A stretch of 36,347 nt of DNA, from the NCBI GenBank assembly GCA_021820245.1, contig JAKADT010000007.1, forward strand, positions 1 to 36,347, written 5' to 3'. A model generated the notes under the pieces. That model did no database searches. It saw only the letters and a program-made list of their open reading frames with translations, and was not told the DNA's origin. The position numbers and the translations under genes are program-made. This DNA comes from Thermoplasmata archaeon (lineage in GTDB: Archaea > Thermoplasmatota > Thermoplasmata > Thermoplasmatales > Thermoplasmataceae). Numbering within the stretch: the first letter of the stretch is position 1; every line of letters begins with the position of its first letter. Below are positions 6,632 to 36,347 of the stretch, in pieces.

Positions 6632-6660
6632 AGTTGAGGTTTCAAGGTCTGAGGTGTCTA

Positions 6661-7428
6661 ATGTATAGAGCCGTATATAGAGGAGCTAAAAAGCTTCGTA
6701 AGGTTTTCAGCCTTAAGGCGGACAATAAGGCTGAAACTGGGATCGGTACCCTGATTATCTTTATAGCCATGGTACTGGTCGCAGCAGTAGCAGCAACCGT
6801 ATTGATCAACACCGCCGGATCATTACAACAGAGAGCGCAGAGCACTGGGTCTCAAACAACAAACCAGGTTTCCACCGGGTTGATTGTCCAGTCCATTTAT
6901 GGAATGGATAATAACAAGGCGAATCCTGAGTCTGGAACTTTGAACTGGACAGCAATATATGTGACTTTGAACACTGGGAGTTCTCCAGTAGATCTGTCAA
7001 ATGTGTCGCTAAGTTTGGAATACAAAGGGCAGTTGGCATCGCTTAAGTACACAGCAGCCTCCACAAATGCAAGTTTTGCAGTTGATACAAATGGAACATC
7101 CAACGTATTCAGTGTACTTACTTCATCAGTTGGATTCAAAAACGGAAAGAACTCATCTGCCGGAGATGTACAACTTAAGAACGTAACAACCGCGGCTAAC
7201 TTCGCAATAGTTGTCATAAGAGACCCGACAAACTCACTCACAAGCTCTCACCCAGTATTGACAACCGGATCGGAAGTAGTTCTATTAGTGAACACATCTG
7301 CAGTATTTGGAGGATTGGGACAGGGACAGAGTGTAACTGGACAGATAACCCCATCAGTAGGGTCACCTGGAATCATACAGTTTACAACACCGTCTGCTTT
7401 CACAGAAACAGTGATGGAACTGCAATAA
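6661..7428 (+). CDS. flaB: Archaellin (flagellin) with class III signal peptide
   Basis: Start moved from 6634 (TTG) to ATG 6661. Signature [35 protein letters not shown]. Confidence 0.95.
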
Positions 7429-7459
7429 GTTCCATTGCATCGGAGTACAGTGACTAACA

Positions 7460-7948
7460 ATGGGTCTCTTGGATAATATATTTGGAAGGAGGAGAAGAGA
7501 GACCACAGCGAACGTGGCTACCCAAAATGTGCCTCAGCAACAACCCCCTGGCCCAATCCAGGGGGCTCCATCCCAATTTGACAGCAAGTTCATAGATGGG
7601 GTTAACCAGAGAATAACCTCAACAGAGAACGAAATCAGCAAAATAAATACTGCACTTGATGGTGCGAAAAGGAGTATTTCCGATATAAGAACTGAACTGG
7701 ACGTAATCAAGGAGAATGTTAAAATGGTAGTATCGTTATATGAGATGGTATCCAAGAAATTCAACCCATTCATGGACACTACACCCGAGGAGATAAAGGA
7801 AATAACTGATGCCCTGAGGGAAGAGATACATGAAGTTGAGCTTCTTGTGAGATCGGCAATTAACGATCTCCGTGAACTATACGGAACCCCTGATGTGGAA
7901 GGTTTGGTATCGGACATAGAGCCGGAGGGAGACAAAGATGATCAGTGA
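7460..7948 (+). CDS. flaC: Archaellum accessory protein FlaC
   Basis: 162 aa, coiled-coil; VVSLYEMVSKKFNPFM motif; lies between flaB and flaD/E. Confidence 0.85.
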   Translation: MGLLDNIFGRRRRETTANVATQNVPQQQPPGPIQGAPSQFDSKFIDGVNQRITSTENEISKINTALDGAKRSISDIRTELDVIKENVKMVVSLYEMVSKKFNPFMDTTPEEIKEITDALREEIHEVELLVRSAINDLRELYGTPDVEGLVSDIEPEGDKDDQ

Positions 7949-8636
7949 ATCACTAAAGGGATACTTGCAGAGCAAACTGGACTCTGCTGATAAGTCCATA
8001 CCAAAATTTGTAATAGAAGAGCTGAGACAAAAAATTCTCAATTCACCAACTAAGTTCTCTAAATCCGACATAGAAACCCTCTTTAACAATCTGCAACAGA
8101 GATACAGTGAAGGCAAGGAAAATTCCCTCCTTGGAAAGGTTGACACCCTGTTCAAGGAGATTACAAACGTGGAACGAATGCTTTCTGGAGACGCGAACAG
8201 AAAGAAGCCTGCAGATGAAGGTGAAGGCGAAGATCAACAGTCTTTGAGGAACAGAAACGTGTGGAGAACCCACAGGAAGTCCAAGCTCGAGGCTATTGGA
8301 GACGATGTTATATCGTTGATGGTGGCCCTGAGATGGCTGGAATTCCTGCTGGATAACTACGGTCCTGAAAATACCATAGACATACTGGACTATTACGAAA
8401 GCATCGGGTGGATCTCATCTACCGTAAAGGAACAGATGATAAAATTCACCAAGATGACTGGAATAATAACACCTGTCCAGGAATACAAAATAAAGCCGAC
8501 AATTCAGGACCACATCGTAACAATGCTCTTCATCGAAAAACTAAATGGTGGAGAAATCAGCAGAGACATTGTTGAGTCCTTGGAGAGGGAGTTTAGAACT
8601 CTTAAGAAGGGAGTTGACGAACTGTATGGGATTTAG
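7938..8636 (+). CDS. flaD: Archaellum accessory protein FlaD/E
   Basis: 232 aa; FlaD/E domain VALRWLEFLLDNYGPENTIDILDYYESIGWIS; overlaps flaC. Confidence 0.88.
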   Translation: MISESLKGYLQSKLDSADKSIPKFVIEELRQKILNSPTKFSKSDIETLFNNLQQRYSEGKENSLLGKVDTLFKEITNVERMLSGDANRKKPADEGEGEDQQSLRNRNVWRTHRKSKLEAIGDDVISLMVALRWLEFLLDNYGPENTIDILDYYESIGWISSTVKEQMIKFTKMTGIITPVQEYKIKPTIQDHIVTMLFIEKLNGGEISRDIVESLEREFRTLKKGVDELYGI

Positions 8637-9045
8637 TTACGTAGCAGCTGTGGCAATTCTGCTCAGCTCTTCCCTTATTTTTTTCGGGATAATCTATTCA
8701 GACTACGTTCATTCAGAAACTCAACTGAGCAATGCCCAGAATGACCAGAATAAGCAAATGTATGACTACATAAATTCGAAGGTTAATATAACAGGATATA
8801 ACGTGTCACCTTTTAATTCGGTTTATAACGTGACAATCAACATGACAAACACAGGCAGCATAACACTGGATTTGATGAGTTCAAATCTGCTGCTTAACGG
8901 AAGTCTCGAAAACTTCAGTTACAGTAGTGAATATCTGTTTCCAACGGCCAATGGAAGCGTAACTTTCCAGACAAGTGCTGGAGATTACCAGGTGGAAATA
9001 GCATTTAACACCGGCTATAAAGTAATAACGGAGGTAAAAGTTTAA
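8626..9045 (+). CDS. flaF: Archaellum protein FlaF
   Basis: Start moved from 8545 to ATG 8626 (MGFSYVAAVAILLSSSLIFFGIIYSDYV), overlapping the flaD/E end by 11 nt. Single N-terminal TM plus beta-rich domain. Confidence 0.85.
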   Translation: MGFSYVAAVAILLSSSLIFFGIIYSDYVHSETQLSNAQNDQNKQMYDYINSKVNITGYNVSPFNSVYNVTINMTNTGSITLDLMSSNLLLNGSLENFSYSSEYLFPTANGSVTFQTSAGDYQVEIAFNTGYKVITEVKV

Positions 9046-9497
9046 TGGCTTCAATAGCGACATCAGAAATGATAATGTTCATCGCCACAATGGTGCTCAC
9101 GGCTTCAGTGGTGGGAGTCCTGGGTGGTGAGACGCTTCACCTTTCAAACAGTCTCACGGGATCATCTACCAGTGCGTCTGCACAGATACAGACTGATTTC
9201 AAAATAATAAACGACCCATCACAGATCCCTTACGACAAAGGATACGTGTTCTATGTAAAGAATACGGGTCAGGTGGGTTTCGAGTTCACCAATAACACCG
9301 TAAACACAATCGTAAATGGATCAATAGTAACCGGGAGCTACATAAATTACAGCACCCCTCCTGGGACAAACGGGGAGCTCATGCCTTCACAGGTGGGTGA
9401 AATAACCGTAAATATAACCCTATCGGCAGGGTATCATACCATAGCGATAACTCTCAATGATGGGGTCACACAGCAAATGGTATTTGAGATTGACTAG
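9045..9497 (+). CDS. flaG: Archaellum protein FlaG
   Basis: 150 aa, N-terminal TM and beta-rich domain; TAATG overlap with flaF. Confidence 0.85.
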   Translation: MASIATSEMIMFIATMVLTASVVGVLGGETLHLSNSLTGSSTSASAQIQTDFKIINDPSQIPYDKGYVFYVKNTGQVGFEFTNNTVNTIVNGSIVTGSYINYSTPPGTNGELMPSQVGEITVNITLSAGYHTIAITLNDGVTQQMVFEID

Positions 9498-9506
9498 TGA
9501 TCTAAC

Positions 9507-10178
9507 ATGTTCCTTAATTTCACAATCGAGGGGGATGAACTCGACAGAAGAATGGGTGGTGGCCTTTACGTTGGCCAGATTGTCACAATCATAGGTGGCA
9601 ATGGTGAGGGGAAGACCCTTCTCTCTCTCAGGTTGTCCTACGGTGTGATGAAACATGGAACAGAGATAGCATACATATCATCACAGTTTCCCATTCGGGA
9701 ATTCGTGTCTGAGGCCGAGGCACTTGGATATTCACTCTTCAACCCAATCCTTTCGGGACAGATATCATACATAACAACTGTATTCCTGCTGAGAAAAAGC
9801 AGAAGGTCTACAGTAGACGAGATGCTGAATAACGACGGCATAAAGGAGAAACAGATGGTTGTTGTGGATTCCTTCAAGAAGGATATGTTCAGGGACTTTG
9901 ACATATCGGATTTCTTCTCAAAGTTGAGGAAATTCTCTGAGGGAAGAGTGGTCATACTAACCGTAAACCCACAGGATTTCACAAATGAAGAGATGACCAT
10001 CATAAAACAGCTCTCCACAACCATAATAAACCTGACCTCCAGGGATCTGGCCGGAGAGAGAAAGCATACCATCGATCTGATGAAATACCCAATGGCTATG
10101 AAATCTTTCCAGCAGGCAATTCCATTCAGGATAGAACCGGGAAGAGGATTGATAGTGGAAATATCAAGCGTATCATGA
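9507..10178 (+). CDS. flaH: Archaellum ATP-binding protein FlaH (KaiC-like)
   Basis: Walker A GGNGEGKT, Walker B-like MVVVDSF, operon position. Confidence 0.93.
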   Translation: MFLNFTIEGDELDRRMGGGLYVGQIVTIIGGNGEGKTLLSLRLSYGVMKHGTEIAYISSQFPIREFVSEAEALGYSLFNPILSGQISYITTVFLLRKSRRSTVDEMLNNDGIKEKQMVVVDSFKKDMFRDFDISDFFSKLRKFSEGRVVILTVNPQDFTNEEMTIIKQLSTTIINLTSRDLAGERKHTIDLMKYPMAMKSFQQAIPFRIEPGRGLIVEISSVS

Positions 10179-10196
10179 TGAAAATGAGGTAATAAA

Positions 10197-11822
10197 ATGG
10201 CAGAAATGATAATATCTGACAGTCTGGAAGTGGCTCAGAGCCGCAATCCACACCTGAGGGCTTACCTGGACAGGTACAGATCCACAACGCAGAGAACTCC
10301 AACTTTTATGCCTGTGCCTGACAACTCACTCAGGGACATGGCGTCCATCGACGTCATCTATCCGGTAGGTGATCCAATATTCATTCACATAAATCTGGAT
10401 GAATTCGGTGAAAAAATTTACACTCCAATTGAACCTAATTTAACAGATGAGGAGGACCTGTTCATGGATGAGATTTTAAATCTAATACTGGCAGTTGCGG
10501 CTGACTATCCTCCTCCCGAGAATGATGAAGTTCTTGAGAACAATCTTGATGAGATATACAAAAAGAAAATTTCCATAGGTACAGCCAACAAGGTCAAGGG
10601 ATCCACTGCTACTGTGACACCTGACCTGAATGCAAGACTTCTTTACAACCTGAAGAAAAATGTACTTGGACTGGGTCCAATAGAACCGCTCATAAGGGAT
10701 TCTCACATAGAGGATATCAGCGGAATAGGGGCGTTTGATGTCTTTATAGTGCATAAGATTCTTGGAACCCTGAGAACAAGGATAAGTTTTGGAAACAACA
10801 ATAAACTTTCACTATACAGCAAAAGACTCAGTGAAAGAGTGGGGAGACCAGTTAGTGACAAGACGCCAATTGTTGATGCAACACTTCCTGACGGTTCAAG
10901 GCTTTCAATTGTTTACAGCAGCGATGTTTCGGCCAGGGGGCCAAGCTTCACAATAAGAAAATTCGCGGATATACCGATAAGCATGGTACAACTTGTGAAA
11001 TACAACACCATGTCTGCTGAGGAGGCAGCCTACCTGTGGCTGGCCCTTGAATACGGTCAGAGTATATTTGTATGCGGTGAAACAGCCAGCGGTAAGACCA
11101 CTGTGATCAATGCCATGGTTCCATTTATCAGGCCTGAATCCAAGATCTTCAGCGCGGAAGATACCCCTGAAGTAAGGGCACCACAACCTGCATGGCAGCA
11201 ACTCGTAACCAGGGAAAGGGGAGCTGAAGACAGCAGAGTCACACTTTATGATCTTCTCAGAACAGCCCTGAGGTCCAGACCCAATTACATAATCGTTGGG
11301 GAAATAAGAGGGGCCGAAGGGTCAATGGCATTTCAGGCCATGCAGACTGGACATCCTGTTCTCGCCACCTTTCATGCATCATCGGTAAAGAAGATGATAC
11401 AGAGGTTTACCGGTACTCCAATCAACATACCGGTAACGTTCATGGATAACCTGAACATAGCGCTGATACAGCAGGCAGTGTATGTCAATGGAAGGTTTCT
11501 CAGGCGTACAACAAGCATCAACGAGATTGAAGGTTATTTCGAAGAACTTGGGGGTGTTTCAACCAAGCAGGTTTTCCAGTGGGACCCATCGACCGATCAG
11601 CATGTCTTCAGGGGTTTGAACAACAGCTACATCCTTGAAAAGAGAATAGCCGCCACTGCAGGCATGAGAGATCCGAAAGCAATCTATGATGAGCTGTTCA
11701 AGAGGACAAGAATCATAGAGGGACTCATAAGAAAGAATGTCAACTCGTACTATGATGTGTTCAATGTCACAAAAACGTTCTATATAAAGGGAGAAGGCGC
11801 TGTATCGGCTCTCTACGGATGA
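10197..11822 (+). CDS. flaI: Archaellum motor ATPase FlaI
   Basis: 541 aa type II/IV secretion ATPase: Walker A CGETASGKTT, IIVGEIRGAEG, HPVLATFHASS. Confidence 0.97.
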   Translation: MAEMIISDSLEVAQSRNPHLRAYLDRYRSTTQRTPTFMPVPDNSLRDMASIDVIYPVGDPIFIHINLDEFGEKIYTPIEPNLTDEEDLFMDEILNLILAVAADYPPPENDEVLENNLDEIYKKKISIGTANKVKGSTATVTPDLNARLLYNLKKNVLGLGPIEPLIRDSHIEDISGIGAFDVFIVHKILGTLRTRISFGNNNKLSLYSKRLSERVGRPVSDKTPIVDATLPDGSRLSIVYSSDVSARGPSFTIRKFADIPISMVQLVKYNTMSAEEAAYLWLALEYGQSIFVCGETASGKTTVINAMVPFIRPESKIFSAEDTPEVRAPQPAWQQLVTRERGAEDSRVTLYDLLRTALRSRPNYIIVGEIRGAEGSMAFQAMQTGHPVLATFHASSVKKMIQRFTGTPINIPVTFMDNLNIALIQQAVYVNGRFLRRTTSINEIEGYFEELGGVSTKQVFQWDPSTDQHVFRGLNNSYILEKRIAATAGMRDPKAIYDELFKRTRIIEGLIRKNVNSYYDVFNVTKTFYIKGEGAVSALYG

Positions 11823-13483
11823 TCAATATGATGGATGCAAAGAGGCTTGGAAGATTTACAGGAATAGAGTTCGGAAAGAAGGATGTAGCCATAGTGCTCT
11901 TCGCGTCGGCTCTTTCCGGCATCTTCCTTATACTATACGGGGAGACAAAGAGCCTTGTTTTTCTCATTGTATCCGCCGTGAGTGCAGTGATGCTTCTAGG
12001 CATATTTCTCAGGCCTATTCTCGAAAGGGACAACAAGAAAAACAACATAAACTCAAATATACCGTTTTTCATAACCGCCTTTGCAACACTTTCCGTGAGC
12101 GCGGCAAACAGGATAGATATAATCGAACTTCTATCAAAAAAGGACAAGCTTGGGGCTGTCAGGGAGGATATGGCAAAACTGGTAAACCTTGTGAGAAACT
12201 GGAAAAGAGGGCTTTCGGAGGCTGCAATGTTTCTTTCCCAGAGGACGCCCAGTGAAGTTTTTGCCGACTTCCTTGCCAGATTTGGCCATGCAATCGACAG
12301 CGGGCAGGATTTCGAGGAGTTTGTGAGGGATGAAGCCGGTACCGTTATGAGTAATTTCGAGACCACATATATCTCAAGCCTGTACACCTTTGATCTCTAC
12401 AAGGATATGTACATTTCACTTTTGCTTGCCTTTGCCTTTCTCATAACGTTCATACTCATAATGCCCATACTCATACCAATAAACATAATAGCGGTCCTTT
12501 CCCTGAGCATGATAACCATCATTATGGGGGAAGCTCTGCTTGTGTATGGAATCAAGATGGTACTCCCAAATGATCCCATATGGCACGACACCGGAATCAA
12601 GACAGATCTTCAGCTGAAGATAAGAAAGATATTCATCATGGCAGGAGTCATTTCCATGGTCCTGCTCACAGCCCTCCTGACAACCGGACTTGCGCTTAAG
12701 ATACCTTTTTACTTTGATATTGCAATAATAATAACTCCATTTGCCTGGCCCGGCATAGTGGGGTCCAGGGAGGAGAAGAAAATCACGAAGAAAGATGACA
12801 TGTTCGGGAGCTTTATAAGGTCGCTTGCAGGATCGGCTTCTGCAAGGGGAAACATGGTCATTGAGGCACTTAAGTCAATTGTTCTTCATGATTTTGGGTC
12901 CCTGACCAGGGACATAAGGAATCTTTACAAAAGACTCACCTACAGGATCAGCAATACGGAAGCCTGGAAGAATTTCAGTGCAGAAACTGGTTCGCACCTA
13001 ATCGAGGTGTTCTCAGAATCATTTGTCGAAAGTATAGACCTAGGAGCTGATGCCGAGAAAGCCGGACTGGTTGTGGCCGATAACTTTGACAAGGTCATAA
13101 GACTCAGGAAGAGAAGGCATTCATCCGTGTCAAGCTATGTTGGGGTTATTTATGGAATCACGGGAGGGCTTGCCTTTTCCCTGGCCATATCTTACGGCGT
13201 CCTGGAGATCATAAGCAAGGTGTTTTCAAGCCTCGATGTATCCAGCCTCAACGACTTTGGCATATTTGTTGCCCAACCACCATCCGAACTGCTCATAATA
13301 GAGATGTTCATTGTTGCAATCCTGTTCCTGCATTCATTTGTTGCCGGCACTGCCCTGAAAATAGCTGATGGAGGGAGAGTGGCACATAGCCTTCACCATG
13401 CAGTCATAATGATCTGGATCGTCTCCATTGTTATTTACGGAACGCTCCAGGTGGTTGTTCTTATGCTTGGCGGAGGACTGTGA
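11819..13483 (+). CDS. flaJ: Archaellum membrane platform protein FlaJ
   Basis: 554 aa multi-TM T2SF-like protein; ATGA overlap with flaI. Confidence 0.95.
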   Translation: MINMMDAKRLGRFTGIEFGKKDVAIVLFASALSGIFLILYGETKSLVFLIVSAVSAVMLLGIFLRPILERDNKKNNINSNIPFFITAFATLSVSAANRIDIIELLSKKDKLGAVREDMAKLVNLVRNWKRGLSEAAMFLSQRTPSEVFADFLARFGHAIDSGQDFEEFVRDEAGTVMSNFETTYISSLYTFDLYKDMYISLLLAFAFLITFILIMPILIPINIIAVLSLSMITIIMGEALLVYGIKMVLPNDPIWHDTGIKTDLQLKIRKIFIMAGVISMVLLTALLTTGLALKIPFYFDIAIIITPFAWPGIVGSREEKKITKKDDMFGSFIRSLAGSASARGNMVIEALKSIVLHDFGSLTRDIRNLYKRLTYRISNTEAWKNFSAETGSHLIEVFSESFVESIDLGADAEKAGLVVADNFDKVIRLRKRRHSSVSSYVGVIYGITGGLAFSLAISYGVLEIISKVFSSLDVSSLNDFGIFVAQPPSELLIIEMFIVAILFLHSFVAGTALKIADGGRVAHSLHHAVIMIWIVSIVIYGTLQVVVLMLGGGL

Positions 13484-33273: not shown

Positions 33274-34728
33274 TTATGCCGACCTCTCCGAATAAGCTAT
33301 TTTAGCCGCCATGGGAGAATATTTCTTCCATCTGTCCACCAGAGGTATGAATTCTTCCGAAACTTTATCCATGATATTAAGGTACTCCAGTATTCCAAGA
33401 ACAGACTGATCAGCATCCCTTACTGCGCTTATGAGATCACGGTTTCCGTTTGTGGAATCTCCACCTGAAAAAAGTCCAGGAATTGATGTCATTCCCTGTG
33501 GATTCACTATTGGCTGCCCCTGTGGAGTCAACCTGAGTTTCCTGAGATATTCCTCCTCCATGAATGTGTAATCATTCTCCTGCCCCGTTGCCTCTATTAC
33601 ATAATCTGCATCTATTTCCTGCACTTTGTCCTTGTTTGGTACGGGCTTTGCTCTTCCTCTGCCATCTGAAACCATCTCATTCTGCCAGTATTTGACTGAT
33701 ACGACCCTGTTTCCCTTCTTTACGTATTCAAAGGGTGTCACTTCCCACACGTAGTGTACGCCTTCCTCCTCTGCCTCTTCCATTTCCTCTTCAGCGTTCA
33801 TGGATGGGTAACCGGGTCGATCGACTTCCCTTCTACGATAAAATATATATGAGTTCTTGGCCCCTAGCCTGAGAGCAGTTCTTGATGAATCGTTGGCGGT
33901 GAAGCCTCCCCCGATTATTACAACATTCTTCCCCACGTCCACTCTTTCCCCGAAACTTGCTCTCCTTAAAAATTCAGTTGCGTGGACGACATTTTCTGCG
34001 TCACTTCCCGGAGTTCCCGTCATTCGTGGTTTCTGGTTACCAACAGACATGAATACAGCGTCATATGTAGTCATCAGTTCTTTGAAATGAATGTCTTTTC
34101 CAACTTTTGTATTGAGGTGGACTTCCACCCCCTGGGACAGGATATATCCAATCTCTTTGTCCAGAACTTCCTGTGGTAGCCTGTACCTCGGTATGCCAGT
34201 CTTCATGAAACCACCGAGAGCAGGGAATTTTTCGTAAATTGTCACCTTCACACCCTGTATGGAAAGATAATAGGCTGCAGTGAGACCAGCGGGGCCCCCA
34301 CCTATAACTGCCACTTTCTTTCCAACGAATTTTTTCCTGGGTACATTGATAATGCTTGAATAGTCATCGAACTTATCTGCGGCATACCTTTTCAGATGTC
34401 TTATGGCAATTGGCCCACCGGTGTCGTAAAGAACACAGATATCCTCACACAGGTGCGTGCATACACGTCCAATTATTGCAGGAAATGGAAGATTCTCGAA
34501 AACTATCCTCACTGTCTGTGCAGGATCGCCAACAGATGTACTTTTTATATAACCGCCAATGTCAAGACTTGCCGGACATGCCTGGGTACAGATGTTGCAA
34601 CCTATACAACGGCTCGCTTCTGCTACGGCCGAACTGTCTGAATATTCTTCCAGAGGTTCGATTGTAAACCCCTGGAGCCTTTTTTTCGGATCGGCATGAT
34701 CTATTTTAACACGTTCAAAGCTAAGCAT
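33274..34728 (-). CDS. GltD-like NAD(P)-dependent flavoprotein oxidoreductase (glutamate synthase small-subunit family)
   Basis: 484 aa; N-terminal Cys cluster CIGCNICTQACPASLDIGGYI, VIGGGPAGLTAAYYLSIQGVKVTIYEKFPALGGFM, VVIIGGGFTANDSSRTALRLGA. Confidence 0.92.
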   Translation of the reverse strand: MLSFERVKIDHADPKKRLQGFTIEPLEEYSDSSAVAEASRCIGCNICTQACPASLDIGGYIKSTSVGDPAQTVRIVFENLPFPAIIGRVCTHLCEDICVLYDTGGPIAIRHLKRYAADKFDDYSSIINVPRKKFVGKKVAVIGGGPAGLTAAYYLSIQGVKVTIYEKFPALGGFMKTGIPRYRLPQEVLDKEIGYILSQGVEVHLNTKVGKDIHFKELMTTYDAVFMSVGNQKPRMTGTPGSDAENVVHATEFLRRASFGERVDVGKNVVIIGGGFTANDSSRTALRLGAKNSYIFYRRREVDRPGYPSMNAEEEMEEAEEEGVHYVWEVTPFEYVKKGNRVVSVKYWQNEMVSDGRGRAKPVPNKDKVQEIDADYVIEATGQENDYTFMEEEYLRKLRLTPQGQPIVNPQGMTSIPGLFSGGDSTNGNRDLISAVRDADQSVLGILEYLNIMDKVSEEFIPLVDRWKKYSPMAAKIAYSERSA

Positions 34729-34830: not shown

Positions 34831-35838
34831 TTATTTCGTTTTCCATGAAATTCTTACCGATGAATTTTTATCATAGAGCATCGGGGCAAGTTTAGCGTAT
34901 ATGACGTAATTATCATGGGAAATGTCTTCTCCTATTTTGCTAATTTCCGGGTAATTCTTTATAAAAACCTTGAACGAACCTTCTGCCACAACAATGATCT
35001 GGTTTTCCCTGATCAGTGGTGTAACTTTTATTTTATGAACAAGGTTTTCAACTGCGGTTAATTCTGTCTGTCCCGTGGAATCGATCTCTCTAAGAAGCAG
35101 ATCATAGGCAGAAATTGAAATAAGCATTTCTGGTTTATGGGTGTATCCGGACTCTGCCAGAAGTTCAATTGCCTTCACAATATCCTTTGCCACATTACCT
35201 GGTTTTGACCAGTCACCGGACTTGATTTCAGTGGATCTTCTTACCAGGGACAGTTCATGGTCTGTTATGAGGAGCTTATTTAACATTGCATTAAATTTCC
35301 TCATTGCAGTTTCCTCTTCCATTTCTTTATATATCTTATCACTGTGCCTGCGTATTTTATATTCAACGTTCACCTCCGATAGTGGTATTATCCTCTGGTT
35401 ATCTTCAGGCACTGGCAATCCATCCTGATCCCATGGAATTTCGTCTGTATTGATCACGTAGTGTAGTTGTTTGTTAGTCTGTTCTGGACTCTCGGCTTTT
35501 TCATGAAGTTCCCTACCATTTTCTCTTACATCCATTGGAAAATCTACAGCCTTTCCCAGCAAGTTCGATGCCTCAATCCATCCGGACTTTATCTTTTCAA
35601 AATCTTCTGGAACATAGTCATACAATAATCTTATGAATTCTCCAAAATGAGCCACTTCCTCTTTCGCAATATCCTCATGAACTTTCTTGAATGAACCATC
35701 AGGCATCAGTTTGGACTGCTGAAGGTAAAAATTTATGGCATCAAGTTCTGCCGCCAGGGCCAGCCTTATTGATCTGGATATCTCCTCATTGTCAAGTCTT
35801 CTCGTTCTTTCCAGTTCTGATGGATCTTTTGAAAACAT
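34831..35838 (-). CDS. Encapsulin shell protein with N-terminal EncFtn-like ferritin domain (fusion)
   Basis: 335 aa. N-terminus has E31, Y38, E61, H64 (AELDAINFYLQ..KEEVAHFGEF). C-terminal about 210 aa resembles an encapsulin/HK97 fold (AKDIVKAIELLAESGYTHKPEMLISISAYDLLLRE..VTPLIRENQIIVVAEG). Confidence 0.87.
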   Translation of the reverse strand: MFSKDPSELERTRRLDNEEISRSIRLALAAELDAINFYLQQSKLMPDGSFKKVHEDIAKEEVAHFGEFIRLLYDYVPEDFEKIKSGWIEASNLLGKAVDFPMDVRENGRELHEKAESPEQTNKQLHYVINTDEIPWDQDGLPVPEDNQRIIPLSEVNVEYKIRRHSDKIYKEMEEETAMRKFNAMLNKLLITDHELSLVRRSTEIKSGDWSKPGNVAKDIVKAIELLAESGYTHKPEMLISISAYDLLLREIDSTGQTELTAVENLVHKIKVTPLIRENQIIVVAEGSFKVFIKNYPEISKIGEDISHDNYVIYAKLAPMLYDKNSSVRISWKTK

Positions 35839-35860
35839 GAATCTTAATCTTTAAAAACTA

Positions 35861-35870
35861 CTTAAATATG
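35861..35870 (-). promoter_or_regulatory. Probable TATA region for the encapsulin gene
   Basis: Minus-strand CATATTTAAG, about 23-32 nt upstream of the ATG at 35838. Confidence 0.4.
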
Positions 35871-35884
35871 GTAGAAAGTCAACT

Positions 35885-36204
35885 GCCCACCTCTGAAGAG
35901 GTGGGCTTGTAACCTTATTAGGCTACTATTGGCTGGTTGACATTCCTTTACCGGAGGAAGGAGGCTATTCTTTATCCCTTTCAGGAAACGCTCCACAGCC
36001 TGATTCCAGCAGGGGATTGAGGTATATGTCCCTTCTTCTCACGAAGATCATGCCGCCGAAACCGATATGTTCTCTCGAACAGTCCAGCTTAACTGTCTTA
36101 CTCCTCAAGGGAGTGCCTTCCCATCCCAGGGGTGGACACAATTACATACAACAAAAACATATCAATTTTGTGTTCGCTTTCATCCCACCTCTGAAGAGAT
36201 GGGT
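35885..36204. mobile_element. Probable remnant or non-autonomous IS200/IS605-like element (PATE-like), bounded by two related hairpins
   Basis: GCCCACCTC-TGAA-GAGGTGGGC (35885-35906) and CCCACCTC-TGAA-GAGATGGG (36184-36203) 0.3 kb apart. The right one sits in TTTCATCCCAC...TGGGTATTCCCGC, resembling TnpB-associated element ends. No intact transposase ORF. Confidence 0.5.
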
Positions 36205-36347
36205 ATTCCCGCTCACTGTGATAAATTGTGATGCGTGAAAGATCAGAAATGAACAAAGATCGGTACCACGAGCATGGCAAATAGAAGATCGAAGAGAACC
36301 ACGCAGCTCAGAAGGATATAAAGCCAATTTTTCTCGATATAGAAGGA

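Follow-up and report, generated by a model that had tools for sequence, protein, structure and literature searches.

Many Thermoplasmatales inhabit iron-rich acid, and the gene at positions 34831 to 35838 of the window (the whole stretch of 36,347 nucleotides analysed here) raises the question of whether one of these archaea stores iron inside a protein shell. An earlier note on this DNA had delimited the ORF correctly and had read it as a ferritin-like domain fused to an encapsulin shell, giving no strand. The ORF lies on the minus strand, with the ATG at 35838 and the stop, included in the coordinates, at 34831, and encodes 335 aa; the plus-strand reading of 34831-35838 was ruled out, since it has stops throughout and no open frame. 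The gene model is supported by full-length homologues and by the P. furiosus virus-like particle (PfV; PDB 2e0z), which matched residues 1-286 in a phmmer search (E=1.8e-17), a match raised to 7e-25 with a profile of five fusion sequences. The assignment to a Thermoplasmatales host also held, as the source genome belongs to the same family as a genome with a Thermogymnomonas acidicola contig. Our analysis makes it quite probable that the product is a Flp-fusion (family 1) encapsulin that self-assembles into an iron-storage nanocompartment.

The N-terminal half (residues 1-95; 35554..35838, minus strand) is an EncFtn-like ferroxidase domain. P. furiosus EncFtn (5n5e) matches residues 4-95 with E=2.7e-15 in a phmmer search of the PDB, and the two proteins align without gaps over 95 residues at 40% identity; the match to the Pfam model EncFtn-like is below cut-off. 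In the AlphaFold2 (AF2) monomer model this half has helices at residues 17-44, 49-75 and 77-93, three being the expected number. All ferroxidase-centre ligands are present: E31, F37-Y38, E61 and H64 were found at the positions previously given, and the published ligands of R. rubrum EncFtn are E32, E62 and H65, with Y39 conserved (PMC11202242). Residues E31, Y38, E61 and H64 are, furthermore, invariant across the five intact fusions that we found. Archaeal fusion FLPs have been reported to carry DXXXEEXA(T)H instead of HXXXEEXEH (PMC11202242). The motif of the window protein, D56-xxx-E60-E61-V-A63-H64, matches the fusion form, with T as residue 63 in the four other intact homologues, and the ferroxidase site is therefore of the archaeal fusion type.

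The C-terminal half had been proposed to adopt the encapsulin (HK97) fold over residues 110-335, which is supported by profile and PDB sequence matches and by the predicted structure; we place the shell domain itself at residues 132-335 (34834..35445, minus strand). Pfam Linocin_M18 scores 41.2 bits over residues 199-287 (cut-off 24.3). The NCBIfam model encap_f1 reaches 31.6 bits, over residues 203-288 only, and misses its cut-off of 100; this miss reflects a diverged shell outside a narrow equivalog model and is a matter of annotation threshold, not a biological feature. EncB_fam and ferrit_encaps, also from NCBIfam, were matched as well, each below its own cut-off. The AF2 model, built from 15 sequences (window and locus), has a mean pLDDT of 82.5 and is confident for the shell from residue ~130 (pLDDT ~90), while residues 103-122 are disordered (pLDDT <50); the pTM is just 0.61 because the disordered linker leaves the relative placement of the domains undefined. 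The best 50 Foldseek matches in the PDB are mostly encapsulins, including Bacillus methanolicus 9fy6 (E 1.6e-14) and, at rank 16, 2e0z (E=8.9e-13, target-normalised TM 0.65). Phage capsids also appear among the matches because the HK97 fold is common to both. For the most diverged homologue (G008) the Linocin_M18 score is under the Pfam cut-off, and its model shows the same fold, with Foldseek matches that are mainly encapsulins, again including 2e0z.

Between the two halves lies a variable, largely disordered linker (residues 96-131; 35446..35553, minus strand), which over residues 96-133 shares 14-26% identity with the homologues. Lengths and alignment suggest that the shell is ~50 residues shorter than that of T. 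maritima, mainly in the N-terminal arm, which the linker would largely replace. The earlier note was thus right about a shorter shell, but its proposal of a divergent E-loop is not supported, as the strands at residues 132-163 (35350..35445, minus strand), followed by a spine helix at 168-193 according to DSSP on the AF2 model, are confidently modelled. These strands align with the PfV stretch around IIKFEDGVRVV, and the strand pattern preceding the spine helix suggests that they are the E-loop.

On this basis a mechanism can be proposed. The C-terminal HK97-fold halves of the chains would build a closed icosahedral shell, with the N-terminal EncFtn domain held inside because it is covalently attached to the shell half. 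Paired EncFtn domains would form a di-iron ferroxidase centre with E31, E61 and H64 of each chain and Y38 near, Fe(II) would come in via shell pores and be oxidised there, and Fe(III) would mineralise in the lumen. The result in an acidophile would be that iron is stored and Fenton chemistry limited. Regarding assembly and T number, which we infer, the Flp-fusion shells of P. furiosus and S. solfataricus are T=3 (PMC8346489); the shell described here is short and fast-evolving, and its assembly could therefore differ.

A search with the whole protein in 77 genomes of the source genome's family revealed an intact full-length fusion in five of them (G000, G008, G064, G066 and G067), the four other homologues being 41-48% identical to the window protein. 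Fragments were found in G063 and G076 by the same search and, over 30 residues, in G074 by a profile search. Another genome, G034 (locus L006), carries a decayed copy with a frameshift, an internal TGA and no in-frame start codon, and also has an ordinary ferritin (a strong match, E=5e-31). The copy in G056, on a contig of Thermogymnomonas acidicola JCM 13583, is broken, and it was not counted as a pseudogene because its frameshifts may be sequencing errors. PF00210 ferritin is absent from G008, G066 and G067 and only weakly matched in G000 and G064; mutual exclusion of ferritin and encapsulin over the 77 genomes was considered and dropped, the cases being too few. At class level the fusion profile matched 65 of 400 sampled genomes, the matches beyond the family covering the ferritin-like end only, and those inspected outside the family stand alone, with lengths of about 95-125 aa. 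Linocin_M18 was found in 8 of the 400 class genomes, five of them within the source family; the loci inspected elsewhere in the class (L044, L045 and L050) look like phage capsids and were rejected as encapsulins. A single-protein search of the genome-contig collection with the fusion protein gave no match. Moreover, two MAGs titled Micrarchaeota and Marsarchaeota encode identical stand-alone EncFtn proteins (L041:1531-1875 and L042:123-467), which when aligned share 64% identity with the window protein, and the fusion-profile search of these two MAG genomes found no shell. This looks like transfer between acidophile archaea.

The origin of the fusion is a separate matter. In the tree of the ferritin-like domain the family's fusions cluster together (support 83/77 with and 88/81 without outgroup) and adjoin the stand-alone protein of two DPANN MAGs, with PfV apart. 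A clade of all fusions plus the DPANN protein was not rejected (p-AU 0.196), while a clade of fusions alone was (p-AU 0.0008); the latter result would fit either shell loss in DPANN after transfer or two fusions. With the shell-only profile the Quasibacillus and Bacillus shells score ~44 bits (6nj8 43.8), and the weak similarity to PfV (26 bits) ranks below several bacterial shells; in the shell tree, of ~140 columns, the placement of PfV is not fixed. Judging by these comparisons, the Thermoplasmatales fusion might be convergent, a local EncFtn-type protein having been joined, separately from the event in Pyrococcus, to the shell of another encapsulin lineage, an idea that we regard as tentative and rather doubtful.

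The alignments further indicate that the ferritin-like half is near-invariant and the shell fast-evolving, with patchy loss. Between the window protein and its four intact homologues the former is 76-80% and the latter 28-39% identical, and shell identity between genera is 24-39%. This disparity, together with the G034 copy (start codon and frame lost, stop gained) and the shell-less EncFtn-like proteins of related Thermoplasmata and DPANN genomes, may be taken to mean that EncFtn carries the function, and that the protein, while still a ferroxidase, is losing its shell half or can no longer close the shell. We consider this unlikely, as the closest pair (G067/G064, dS ~0.35) gives dN/dS values of 0.05 in the ferritin-like half and 0.15 in the shell, which in this one close pair indicates purifying selection on both halves, and the shell fold is predicted to be intact even for the most diverged homologue. 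A self-assembling iron-storage compartment is the reading that we retain.

Concerning the genomic surroundings, no constant neighbour gene was found across the intact fusion loci, which is expected because the fusion is self-contained. The gene that follows downstream in the same orientation, after 102 bp, encodes a Fer4_20/Pyr_redox_2 flavoprotein (33274-34728); a conserved operon with it was not seen beside the intact homologues, and it was kept out of the proposed mechanism because of this lack of recurrence. Flp-fusion operons often include ferritin-like proteins or rubrerythrins (PMC8346489), and in several genomes the stand-alone relatives adjoin a peroxiredoxin-like or rubrerythrin-like gene, as read from the ORFs. 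Both points count for a compartment devoted mainly to defence against peroxide and oxidative stress instead of iron storage. However, neither the window gene nor the intact homologues were seen to have such a neighbour, and the two roles overlap, given that Fe(II) oxidation uses up oxygen or peroxide; we therefore judge this emphasis even less probable than shell loss. Descent of the gene as a provirus capsid remnant, to which the HK97 fold and the phage capsids among the Foldseek matches might point, is very improbable and was rejected, as the best scores by sequence and fold belong to encapsulin families, an EncFtn is fused, and no virus structural genes lie beside the window gene, its sequenced side holding the Fe-S flavoprotein and the housekeeping genes for seryl-tRNA synthetase and AdoHcy hydrolase.

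Upstream of the ATG by 21-31 nt there is a TATA-like box, ATATTTAAGTA (35859..35869, minus strand), and TTATATA-type boxes occur at a similar distance at the four intact homologues and the broken T. acidicola copy; this position suggests a leaderless transcript. A repeat of ~348 bp (35878-36225), with the palindrome CCCACCTCTGAAGAGGTGGG at one end, ends 40 nt upstream of the ATG and recurs in the genome as a 96% copy on contig C77 and as shorter matches on C79, C5, C119 and C41; it could be a MITE or an IS200/605-like element. The first 127 bases of another contig of this genome, C84, repeat positions 36221-36347 exactly, and the DNA ahead of the encapsulin ATG therefore probably runs on into that contig. 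Elsewhere in the window, a gene run at 6634-13483 that has an archaellin (Arch_flagellin) first and includes a T2SSE-type ATPase is probably an archaellum cluster.

Comparison with known systems places the protein among described types. The P. furiosus particle (PFC_05175; 2e0z, 5n5e) is likewise a single chain with an N-terminal EncFtn of ~95 aa followed by the shell, and it shares the ferroxidase ligands and the DxxxEExA(T)H motif. The total lengths are similar (345 aa compared to 335). The linker and arm of the window protein are shorter, and the host in our case is a Thermoplasmatales archaeon, presumably acidophilic like its relatives. Bacterial family 1 encapsulins with iron cargo (Quasibacillus 6nj8, Bacillus methanolicus 9fy6, M. 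xanthus EncA) have a similar shell, but they package a separate protein that bears a targeting peptide, whereas here the cargo is fused. Conversely, the stand-alone EncFtn-like proteins of Thermoplasmata and Micrarchaeota (s-FLP-like) have a homologous ferritin-like domain of ~95-100 aa and no fused shell. The fusion architecture claimed in the earlier note is thus confirmed, but its view that such a fusion would be notable has to be tempered, since the Flp-fusion class has already been published, all of its members being archaeal and mostly crenarchaeal in a large-scale survey (PMC8346489). An encapsulin has also been listed for a Thermoplasmata archaeon of marine hydrothermal sediment (PMC6934571). 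Among the papers searched, none was found on Thermoplasmatales fusion encapsulins, which may figure in published lists; as far as checked, the protein is ordinary in kind and new to its lineage.

With this finding the Flp-fusion encapsulins, reported chiefly from Crenarchaeota and Pyrococcus, come to include the Thermoplasmatales. In a survey of acidophilic archaea, Dps was not widespread in the euryarchaea covered and its replacement by something else was suggested (PMC8773360); the fusion encapsulin is a candidate for this replacement. Finally, the frozen ferritin half set against a drifting shell, together with loss in relatives, offers a natural test of which features of the shell are necessary.
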